From Natrinema sp. SYSU A 869 (GTDB taxonomy: Archaea > Halobacteriota > Halobacteria > Halobacteriales > Natrialbaceae): a stretch of DNA of 64,000 nucleotides. Location: positions 2,418,001 through 2,482,000 of the forward strand of contig NZ_CP082249.1 in NCBI RefSeq assembly GCF_019879105.1, written 5' to 3'. The notes below the pieces were generated by a model that was given only the letters and a program-made list of their open reading frames with translations, searched no databases and was not told the DNA's origin. Shown here piece after piece: positions 43,564 through 46,886 of this stretch (position 1 is the stretch's first letter; every line of letters begins with the position of its first letter). The translations under genes and the position numbers were made by a program.

Positions 43564-44328
43564 TCAGTCGGCCGGCTCGACCGCGGACTCCTCGGACTTC
43601 TCGAGGGTGACGCCGTCCGAGCCGTCGTCGCCTCCATCGGTCGATTTGAGTCCGGCGATCACCTGATCGGTCGCGTCGGTCGCCCGTAACACCAGGACAC
43701 CGAACCCGATTCGGGCGAGGATGTCGAGATACGAGGCGACGAAGATACCGCCGAACGCGTCGAGTAGCCCCAGTCCCTGCCGCGAGACGAACCCCATGAC
43801 GAGGTAGAACACCCAGAGCAAGAGCAGCAGGTTCCGGAGCTTGCCGTAGAGGAGGACTCGCTCACCATTTTGCTGGCCGGAGCGTTTCGTGATCGGCCAG
43901 ATCATCAGGACGACGATCGCCACGAGGGAGACGATCGTTACGATCCCGGCGACGGTGTTCAAGGGAGGATCGAGGAGGTAGCGAACGGCTGTCGATCCGA
44001 CCCACGCCACGCTCAGGACGATCGCGACGGCCAGTTGCCGTCTGGTCGCCCCGGCGATCAGCCCGGCGACGAAGACCATGATCGGCGTCGCGATCACGTA
44101 GTCGACGTACCGGGTCAGCGGGATCGGCTGGCCGCCCGCCGTCGTGATGCGGAACAATTCGATCGACATGCCGAAGTTCGAGAGTGCGAGCGTCCCGCAC
44201 ATGATCGGTACGGGGAGGTAGTACCGCCGCTTTCCCGCGGGCATCCGGGCGATCCACACGAGGAAGCCGAGGGTCGCCGCCGTCATCGCGTAGAACGCGA
44301 ACTGATAGAGTTGGACTTCGGGTATCAT
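43564..44328 (-). CDS. Sensory-rhodopsin homologue lacking the retinal lysine
   Basis: 254 residues, seven helices, closest in layout to sensory rhodopsin II. Helix C reads 'LTRYVDYVIATPIMVFVAG': R73 and D76 match R72 and D75 of N. pharaonis SRII, and the proton donor position is not acidic. Helix F keeps W172 and Y175. Helix G reads 'ASYLDILARIGFGVLVLRA': Y200 and D202 match Y199 and D201, but the Schiff-base lysine (K205 in SRII, K216 in bacteriorhodopsin) is R206, codon CGA at 43711-43713. T204 is A205, P175 is L176 and W178 is G179. Retinal cannot form a Schiff base with arginine. It overlaps the transducer gene by 4 bp. Confidence 0.92.
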   Translation of the reverse strand: MIPEVQLYQFAFYAMTAATLGFLVWIARMPAGKRRYYLPVPIMCGTLALSNFGMSIELFRITTAGGQPIPLTRYVDYVIATPIMVFVAGLIAGATRRQLAVAIVLSVAWVGSTAVRYLLDPPLNTVAGIVTIVSLVAIVVLMIWPITKRSGQQNGERVLLYGKLRNLLLLLWVFYLVMGFVSRQGLGLLDAFGGIFVASYLDILARIGFGVLVLRATDATDQVIAGLKSTDGGDDGSDGVTLEKSEESAVEPAD

Positions 44329-46580
44329 TGGGACTCACCTCCCTGTCCCGCAGGGGCCACAGTCGAACCGGCCGGCGATGACGAGACGGTGAACTCGTCG
44401 ACGGCGTCAGCGAGATCCGCGGCTCGCTCGTCCAAGCGGGTCGCCTCATCGGAGACGTCAGTAATCGTCGCCGTCGTCTCTTCGGCGGCCGCCGCGGCCT
44501 GTTCGGCCTGCGACGTCGTTTCGTTCGCGACACTTGCGACGTCCTGGACGATCGTCGCCAGCTCTTCGGCGGAACTGGCCTGTTCGTCCGTTGCCTGATC
44601 GATCTCTTGGACGCCAGACGTCACCTGTTCGATCTCCGTCGCGATCCGGTCGAGTTTGGTCGAGAGCGAGTCCACCCGTTCGGTCGCCGACCCGATCGTC
44701 GACTCGGCTTCCTCGATCTGTGTCGCGCTCTCGGTCGCTCGCTGTTGTATCGATTCGATCATGATTTCGACGTCCTCGACTGCCGTCTGGGTCTGCTCTG
44801 CGAGTTCCTTGACCTCATCGGCGACAGCCTGGAACCCGCCGCTTTCGCTCGAGGCACTTTCCGATCGCGCGGACTCGATGGCCGCGTTCAGCGCGAGCAT
44901 GTTGGTCTGGCCGGCGATTTCGTCGATCACCTCGACGATTTCCTGAATCTGTTCGGCCTCTTCGTCCAGCGATCGGATCGTCTGTGCGACGGCTTCCGTC
45001 CGGTCGCTGGCCGCGTGCATCTCCGCGGTCGTCTCCGTCGCCGCCTGCTGACCGTCCGTGGCCAGATCGTCAACCTGACTCGACTGCTCGGCGATGTTAC
45101 TCGTCGCAGCAGCGACCTCCTCGACGGTCGCGGACATCTCCTTGACTTCGGTCGTTGCCACCGAAAGGTCCTCGGCCTGCTTCGAGGACCCGTCCGAGAT
45201 CTCCTGGACCGACGTGCTGACTTCCTGGCTGGCCCGACTGATCTCGTCGGAACTGGTCTGGACTTCGGTACTCGTCCGGGCGACCTCCGCCGAGATCGTC
45301 TTGACCTGTGCAATCGCGGTCTCCAGGTCGACGATCATCTCGTTGAACGCCTCGGCGATCGACACCATCGCCTCGTGGTCCGTTTCGGGCTCGAGGCGCT
45401 GCTCTAAGTTGCCGTCGGCACACGCCGCCATGACATCGCTGTAGCGTTCGGCCTCGGCCTCGAGTTCGCGGTTGCGCTCTTCAGTCTGGTGTTTGGCCTC
45501 GCGAGCGCGTTCGTGCTGGTCCTCGAGATCGGAGAGTGTTTCCCGCAACGAGTCCCGCATCGACGCGAACGAACCGTAGAGGGTCCCGACCTCGTCGACC
45601 CGGTTGGTCTCGAGGTCGACCGTGAGGTCGCCGTCGCCCATCCGTTCGGTCTTGTTCGCGAGTCGGCGGAGATACAGAGAGATGTTGCCGCCGAGGACGA
45701 CCCCGACAAGTCCGAGATGGAGGACGAAGAGCAACAGAACTGCGAGTAGCGACGATGTCGCCGTTTGCTGTGGTCCATAGACGGCTGCTGCGGTATCGTA
45801 GGTCATCACCGTCAGCGATTCGCCGCCGGTGTCGATCGTCGCCGCCGTCGCCGCGAACTCCGTCTCGGAGCCGTCGGGGACGTCGGTCGCGACGCCGTCG
45901 TCGCTCGGCGAGACCGCGGCGAGGACCGCCTCGTCACCGACCGACGCCTCCTGGCCGATCGTCGCGATCGTCTCCCCGTTGGCGTTCGTGACGACCGTAC
46001 GACGCGAGTCTCCCTCGGTCTCGAGGACCGATGCGAACGCGGCGGTCGAGGCGGAGACGGCCACGTACCGTTCGTCATTACCCTCGACGCTCGAGATGAA
46101 CGAGAACACGGACTCGTTGCTCGTTATCGCCTCGTGAGTGGCGCTGGGTCCGTCGGTGCCACCCTGCACGCCGGCCGCCTCGAAGACGTTCTCCCCGACG
46201 GCAGCGTCCGCACTGCTCGCGAGGACGTCCCCGTCGCCGTCGAGATAGTGAATCTCCGTGACTCGGTCCTCGCGCGCGGACTGAGCCGTCGCGAGTCGGT
46301 CACTGATCTCGTCGTTCGTTCCTGTTCGGACGGTCACATCTGCGGTGAGCCCGTCCGTCGTTTCGGCGGTGGTATCGAGCCAGGCCGCCGCGACGTCGCT
46401 GCGGTCGTCGGTTCGATCGCTGAAGTGCTCTTCCGCCGCCGGGCCGACCGTGCCGGAGACGTGACCGAAAAAGAGCGCCGAGACAGCGATCGTCATCACA
46501 ACGACCAACAAGAAAATCAAGCCGATCTTTACACTGTACGTTTCTCTGAACCGATCAGGGAGATAGTCCTCGAGTGCCAT
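44325..46580 (-). CDS. Htr-like methyl-accepting transducer, partner of the rhodopsin homologue
   Basis: 751 residues. TM1 is at about 19-39, an extracytosolic domain of about 235 residues at 40-275, TM2 at 276-298, HAMP from 299, then a long helical signalling domain. The hairpin tip reads 'GQTNMLALNAAIESAR...GGFQAVADEVKELAEQ', the CheA/CheW contact; it has a few extra residues between AR and GF ('SESASSESG'). Rhodopsin transducers of the HtrII group have this two-TM design, and some also sense a ligand outside. The stop overlaps the rhodopsin start (ATGA), so the two proteins are made together and should form a complex. Confidence 0.93.
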   Translation of the reverse strand: MALEDYLPDRFRETYSVKIGLIFLLVVVMTIAVSALFFGHVSGTVGPAAEEHFSDRTDDRSDVAAAWLDTTAETTDGLTADVTVRTGTNDEISDRLATAQSAREDRVTEIHYLDGDGDVLASSADAAVGENVFEAAGVQGGTDGPSATHEAITSNESVFSFISSVEGNDERYVAVSASTAAFASVLETEGDSRRTVVTNANGETIATIGQEASVGDEAVLAAVSPSDDGVATDVPDGSETEFAATAATIDTGGESLTVMTYDTAAAVYGPQQTATSSLLAVLLLFVLHLGLVGVVLGGNISLYLRRLANKTERMGDGDLTVDLETNRVDEVGTLYGSFASMRDSLRETLSDLEDQHERAREAKHQTEERNRELEAEAERYSDVMAACADGNLEQRLEPETDHEAMVSIAEAFNEMIVDLETAIAQVKTISAEVARTSTEVQTSSDEISRASQEVSTSVQEISDGSSKQAEDLSVATTEVKEMSATVEEVAAATSNIAEQSSQVDDLATDGQQAATETTAEMHAASDRTEAVAQTIRSLDEEAEQIQEIVEVIDEIAGQTNMLALNAAIESARSESASSESGGFQAVADEVKELAEQTQTAVEDVEIMIESIQQRATESATQIEEAESTIGSATERVDSLSTKLDRIATEIEQVTSGVQEIDQATDEQASSAEELATIVQDVASVANETTSQAEQAAAAAEETTATITDVSDEATRLDERAADLADAVDEFTVSSSPAGSTVAPAGQGGESQ

Positions 46581-46886
46581 AATGTCAAATGGGTGAGTGT
46601 AGCGCGGTACTGATTGCTGCCTTCGTCTCTACTGCTCACCCGTTCTAATTGAATGTATCGGTAGAACTAATTATCTTGAATGATAGATATTCACTATCCT
46701 GTATCTACGATGAGTACAGACAGTGATACCGGGGTGTACTCCTGCGTCCAAACCCATCAAATAAATGCCAATTGCGTTTTACTACGATGGTAACAGCTAG
46801 CGCTGGCGGATTCGATAGACAAGTGAGAGACGGGCCATCGCTACGGGTCGTCGACTCGGCGTTCGATGGCGAGACGTGGAGATCGC
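46581..46886. other. Upstream region of the transducer operon
   Basis: 306 bp, AT-rich in 46640-46800, unlike the flanks. It must hold the promoter of the transducer/rhodopsin operon, but no TATA box sits at the usual distance; AT-rich words around 46660-46700 suggest a leader of some 80-110 nt. A near-palindrome GAATGATAGATATTC is at 46679-46693. A 27-codon frame (46710) is too short and unsupported. Confidence 0.35.

Follow-up and report, generated by a model that had tools for sequence, protein, structure and literature searches.

The window, a 64,000-nucleotide stretch of the genome of Natrinema sp. SYSU A 869, holds an opsin gene whose product has an arginine at the position of the retinal lysine. 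Directly upstream lies the gene for a transducer, and the two genes overlap by 4 bp. The original prediction described an intact opsin gene overlapping a full transducer in this manner, and both reading frames are indeed open. The features of the locus are the following.

43564..44328, minus strand: opsin (opsin-related protein), 254 aa, seven helices, very probably retinal-free (PF01036, 70 bits; AF2 model; 22 orthologs)
43711..43713, minus strand: codon CGA of Arg206, which replaces the Schiff-base lysine (K205 of NpSRII; alignment and coordinates)
44101..44103, minus strand: Asp76 codon, matching the counterion Asp75 of SRII, Asp/Glu in 23/23 (alignment)
44325..44328, minus strand: ATGA shared by the transducer stop and the opsin start (same -4 spacing in all 22 orthologs)
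44325..46580, minus strand: HtrII-type transducer, 751 aa (open reading frame; Pfam; NpHtrII match)
44529..45065, minus strand: MCP signalling domain, residues 506-684 (PF00015, 4e-33)
45540..45695, minus strand: HAMP domain, residues 296-347 (PF00672, 3e-16)
45687..45770, minus strand: transducer TM2, residues ~271-298, with LHLGLVGVVLGG and His at the NpHtrII Asn74 position (NpHtrII alignment)
45771..46457, minus strand: transducer extracellular domain, residues ~42-270, predicted dCache-like fold (AF2 model; fold comparison)
46458..46532, minus strand: transducer TM1 region, residues ~17-41, the homologous stretch starting from LPDR at residue 7 (NpHtrII TM1 alignment)
46647..46660, minus strand: upstream element CGATACATTCAATT, ~82 nt upstream of the common transducer start (conserved position in Natrinema and Haloterrigena)

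An opsin with arginine at the Schiff-base position

The opsin matches the Pfam profile Bac_rhodopsin (PF01036) with 70.1 bits, against a cut-off of 24.6, and its best solved relative is the SRII of N. pharaonis (E 2e-18). The AF2 model has a pLDDT of 89, and it overlays archaerhodopsin-2, SRII, and bacteriorhodopsin with Z ~29 over 208-227 residues; among the matches listed, the scores are Z 29.4 to 1vgo_B and Z 28.9 to SRII (1h68). Thus the profile and the seven-helix fold of a microbial rhodopsin are present, and the helix G Schiff-base lysine is absent, the residue there being Arg206. That the retinal lysine is replaced by an arginine with codon CGA had been proposed from the sequence, and two lines of evidence agree on it: the alignment of 'YLDILARIGFG' in the opsin with 'YLDLVTKVGFG' in SRII, which puts R206 on K205, and the codon coordinates 43711-43713. 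We looked for an alternative Schiff-base lysine, and none of the protein's lysines is in the pocket, whether K33, K148, K163, or the ones of the C-terminal helix and tail. The other pocket changes in the prediction (A205 for T204, L176 for P175, G179 for W178, and Y77 for W76) and the retained residues R73, D76, Y200, and D202 can all be seen in the multiple alignment. Only the change at T204 has a narrower reach than the rest: the alanine is confined to the window's opsin and the two closest to it, and the other 20 members of the clade described below have threonine.

The transducer matches NpHtrII with an E-value of 3e-24, and the two align over TM1 and over TM2-HAMP. It has the elements of an HtrII-type protein, namely TM1 and TM2 homologous to those of NpHtrII, followed by HAMP and MCP domains. 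As for the HtrII interface residues, Ser62 is kept, and both Glu43 and Asn74 have become His. The His at the Asn74 position is found in Natrinema; Haloterrigena and a third genus have Asn. The model of the extracellular domain is nearest, among the matches listed, to KinD, DctB, and amino-acid chemoreceptor domains, the best being 5ere and KinD 4jgq (Z 16.9 each), with PctA, CtaA, and Mlp24 at Z ~16. The predicted dCache fold is common to the sensor domains of PctA, CtaA, Mlp24, and KinD, from which the transducer differs in sequence (8-16% identity) and in having a seven-helix partner. The Pfam dCache_1 profile matches 7 of the 23 orthologous proteins, with a best E-value of 9e-6, and gives no match to the window's own protein.

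The distance from CGATACATTCAATT to the transducer is constant (~82 nt) wherever the common transducer start is used. Its 12-base core CGATACATTCAA is exact in the window and in 17 of the 22 orthologs, and over its 64 kb the window has a single copy of the full 14-mer, where 0.14 occurrences are expected allowing up to two mismatches. This element is probably a control element of the operon.

Conservation and placement of the clade

We searched for orthologs in the window's genome (99% complete, 3 contigs) and in 124 others of its family. The search gives 22 close orthologs with 53-91% identity to the opsin, after which identity drops to 38% for the next opsins. Their hosts belong to Natrinema, Haloterrigena, and the third genus. 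An alignment-based scan of genome contigs allowed us to name Natrinema salsiterrestre, N. ejinorense, N. gelatinilyticum, and Haloterrigena salina as members; a single-sequence scan of genome contigs found no match. The clade, which is to say the window's opsin and its 22 orthologs, has Arg at the K205 position in 23/23 members. The codons are CGG in 15 genes, CGA in 6, and CGC in 2, a variety that is, on comparing the genes, silent change around a fixed arginine. In 22/22 orthologs the transducer is directly upstream with the identical 4-bp overlap, and the pair is flanked by leuS and a DUF2071 gene. All 22 ortholog opsin genes are open and intact.

Is the opsin gene simply decaying, or is the arginine a sequencing artefact? 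Loss of an essential residue commonly begins decay, and there are many clade genomes without another opsin. Against this, 22 independent genomes carry an open gene with the Arg and the transducer, the upstream element is conserved, and the dN/dS ratio is well below 1 in every usable pair. By the Nei-Gojobori method, the opsin's dN/dS is 0.21 relative to the nearest ortholog, with a clade median of 0.42 and a maximum of 0.60, higher in the C-terminal tail than in the core, and the transducer's median is lower, at 0.28; these ratios are rough at high GC, and lysine-bearing control pairs have a median of 0.64 over more distant comparisons. The orthologs refute the pseudogene or artefact reading, to which we give practically no credence. 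The original prediction had dismissed sequencing error, asked for lysine-less copies beside htr genes in other genomes, and named a dN/dS near 1 as the mark of plain decay; the error is excluded by the independent genomes, the copies exist, and the selection is purifying.

Ten positions are fixed in the clade (in SRII numbering): Arg72, Asp/Glu75, Tyr76, Trp108, Tyr174, Leu175, Gly178, Tyr199, Asp201, and Arg205. Five of them (Arg72, Asp/Glu75, Tyr174, Tyr199, and Asp201) are kept from SRII in 23/23, and W76Y, V108W, P175L, and W178G are fixed substitutions. Since W76 and W178 are replaced in all members, the aromatic residues that contact retinal have been lost. Signalling by SRII requires Tyr174 together with Thr204, and Tyr199 contacts Asn74 of HtrII (PMC3274258). 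Of this signal-relay set, the clade has Tyr174 and Tyr199 in 23/23 and Thr204 in 20/23, the window having Ala. Position 75 has swapped between Asp and Glu in two changes within the clade, with the charge retained. As for how positions 75 and 205 go together, an acid is found with Lys and with the clade's Arg, and Gly with Leu, Val, or Phe, which amounts to three independent pairs, and a sign test on them is powerless.

These fixed residues also bear on another reading, in which the role of the opsin is confined to structural or allosteric support, as an assembly factor that binds no ligand, and the dCache-fold domain of the transducer does all the sensing. The large size of that extracellular domain, its predicted similarity to ligand-binding chemoreceptor and kinase domains (Z ~16-17), the slower evolution of the transducer, the freedom of pocket position 127 to vary within the clade, and the fact that the HtrII of H. 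salinarum is itself a serine receptor (PMC3274258) are all in its favor. But the fixation of positions 76, 108, 174, 175, and 178, and of the 75/205 charge pair, exceeds what a plain scaffold needs. We consider this reading possible and somewhat doubtful.

To place the clade, we built a tree from 86 haloarchaeal opsins, leaving out columns 75 and 205. The lysine-less opsins all fall into a single clade (support 100/100), which is where the window's opsin sits, outside the lysine-bearing SRIIs, and within it the 23 Arg genes form a clade of their own (100/100). Haloarchaeal opsin-related proteins (ORPs), including Arg forms beside transducers, were described by Becker et al. in 2016 (PMC4915679), and the window's opsin, which lacks the lysine and shares a clade with the other lysine-less opsins of haloarchaea, is an ORP. 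Group A of these proteins has Arg205 with W76D and Y174L, and group B has Leu or another hydrophobic residue at 205 with Y174L (PMC4915679). The clade agrees with group A in Arg205 but not at the other two positions (Tyr76 and Tyr174 in 23/23), and it has neither of the group B features (Arg205 and Tyr174 in 23/23). In our set of 86, group B has Leu, Val, or Phe at 205, Gly at 75, and Leu at 174. The window's clade branches apart from groups A and B with good support, these groups being recognized by residue patterns rather than from Becker's own sequences. The placement suggests that the Arg arose twice independently, and a single Arg clade, made up of the window's clade plus group A, is still compatible with the data in an AU test (p 0.195).

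Some other lysine-less opsins differ in residue and gene order. His occupies the retinal position at six loci, in four of which the transducer is downstream rather than upstream. Two lysine-less opsins occur together in one genome, one bearing Thr and the other Val at that position, and the Thr-bearing one likewise overlaps its transducer by 4 bp.

How much of this is new? The central idea, a retinal-free opsin that senses something other than light, is a hypothesis of 2016: Becker et al. proposed haloarchaeal opsins as GPCR-like receptors for other stimuli, and reported that several ORPs are transcribed and that two purified ORPs have no retinal absorption band (PMC4915679). Their list of ORP species includes Haloterrigena (PMC4915679), so some members of the clade were probably already counted there. 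Like those ORPs, the clade has no Schiff-base lysine, has lost the pocket aromatics, lies beside HAMP/MCP transducers, occurs in genomes without retinal genes, and belongs to the single lysine-less clade; it differs in having Arg with W76Y and in keeping Y174 and Asp/Glu75. The portions of the Becker text that we draw on (PMC4915679) give no description of an Arg group with Tyr76, Tyr174, and Asp/Glu75. What is new, judging from the alignments, is a separate Arg clade with 100% support that retains more SRII residues than groups A and B. Also new are the HtrII-type transducer with a predicted dCache-like domain and a probable control element, and, as far as the genome searches indicate, the maintenance of the clade in genomes without retinal genes, some of them without an archaellum. 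A literature search for the stimulus of haloarchaeal ORPs found no follow-up after 2016, and one on K205R/K216R found nothing directly relevant.

The comparison with SRII/HtrII of N. pharaonis and H. salinarum shows the same fold, adjacent or overlapping genes in an operon, transducer TM1/TM2, HAMP, and MCP domain, and the same residues Tyr199, Asp201, Arg72, Asp75, and Tyr174. On the other hand, Lys205 has become Arg, W76, P175, and W178 are replaced, and HtrII Asn74 is His in Natrinema. Rh-noK and the freshwater FArhodopsins (PMC10308929) also combine the fold of a microbial rhodopsin with loss of the retinal lysine, Arg being one of the FArhodopsin replacements, but they are bacterial, and they cluster without a transducer, beside proton pumps or flotillin genes.

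Retinal supply and chemotaxis output in the host genomes

In a profile search, the window's genome has one PF01036 gene, the opsin studied here, and no Brp/BCD. The Brp/BCD search is positive in 64 of the 125 family genomes, so the search works. We also found no RPE65-type cleavage enzyme in the window's genome, and a single weak match to the lycopene-cyclase-domain model TIGR03462, of a kind seen across the family, where Brp-bearing genomes typically have three; this pattern gives no sign of CrtY. The genome thus appears unable to make retinal. The same holds more widely: 16/23 clade genomes (the window's and 15 of the 22 orthologs') have no Brp and no opsin besides this one, and the remaining 7/23 have both Brp and other opsins. 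Retention of the opsin gene where the known enzymes cannot make the pigment is the strongest evidence for retinal independence. Together with the Arg in 23/23, it gives strong support to that part of the prediction, and we hold with high confidence, from the gene content and the alignments, that the opsin is retinal-free. In genomes of the same family without a Brp match, halorhodopsin-like proteins at four loci keep the lysine motif DVITK/DIITK.

Any retinal acquired externally would have to act non-covalently, as there is no lysine. A non-covalent retinal, or another carotenoid-derived chromophore, would leave the opsin a light sensor. This would agree with the retained seven-helix fold and Asp/Glu75, and lysine-less opsins can work, with reduced efficiency, when given aminated retinylidene compounds (PMC4915679). 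Yet the genome has no detected Brp, RPE65-type cleavage enzyme, or CrtY pattern, the pocket aromatics W76, W178, and F127 are replaced, and the two ORPs tested gave no visible band (PMC4915679), all of which makes a bound chromophore very unlikely.

The window's genome has CheA, CheB, a CheY-like receiver, two CheC, CheD, CheR, and CheW in one region (including C3:910001-930000). CheF was not seen among the che-region proteins scanned. Searches of the window's genome for archaellin (PF01917) and for ArlD/E (PF04659) found none, each with Haloferax volcanii as a positive control, and PF04659 is also absent from seven other genomes with this opsin. With no detectable archaellum, the classical output of taxis is missing in the window's genome. 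The prediction that the opsin partner controls a chemotaxis transducer therefore stands in its pairing (the 4-bp overlap in 23/23, the HtrII-type TM1/TM2) but is uncertain as regards taxis, there being Che proteins and no detectable archaellin or ArlD/E.

A PilB3-like type IV pilus pair, an ATPase and a membrane protein, adjoins the che genes, and one may conjecture that a type IV pilus is the output of the Che pathway. The idea that an arl deletion placed che beside pil finds no support, as no che gene was found in the 60-80 kb examined around arl in each of four archaellum-bearing relatives. A literature search on haloarchaeal Che systems without archaella found nothing directly relevant.

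A proposed role for the opsin

The reading we favor, and consider likely as a whole, is that the retinal-free opsin is an obligate seven-helix subunit of the upstream HtrII-type transducer. Its being a coupled signalling subunit of that transducer is very likely. That it senses a stimulus of its own through the old retinal cavity is a more tentative proposal, a little short of an even chance. The clade opsin probably senses a non-light signal through the transducer. Three points stand against the favored reading: Thr204 has given way to Ala in the window's opsin and the two closest to it, HtrII Asn74 has become His in Natrinema with Glu43 lost as well, and the window's genome is without a detectable archaellum.

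As a mechanism for the signalling subunit, conservation suggests that Arg206 would pair with Asp76, standing in for the pair of protonated Schiff base and Asp75 in SRII. A non-light stimulus, either a condition of the membrane or of the ions or a small molecule entering the space that W178G opens, would perturb Arg206-Asp76. The change would travel via helices F and G (Tyr175, Tyr200) to TM2 of the transducer, and from there through HAMP and the MCP domain to CheA. The dCache-fold domain would probably provide a second, chemical input, as in the serine-sensing HtrII of H. salinarum. The most extended version is a third retinal-free lineage on a branch of its own, with more of the SRII relay left than in other lysine-less opsins, in which a guanidinium-carboxylate pair, Arg206-Asp/Glu76, is the switch of a chemical receptor in place of Schiff base and counterion. 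In several species, this one among them, it would work through a Che pathway without an archaellum, maybe on type IV pili. This version we think rather unlikely.

Microbial opsins are generally regarded as a light-only family. This clade is a good test case, because most of the SRII relay is retained along with the counterion, which allows a direct comparison with the well-studied SRII, and because 16/23 hosts lack both Brp and any further opsin, so that the usual confounder does not arise. And the apparent absence of archaellum genes from the window's genome raises the question of what such a pathway controls.
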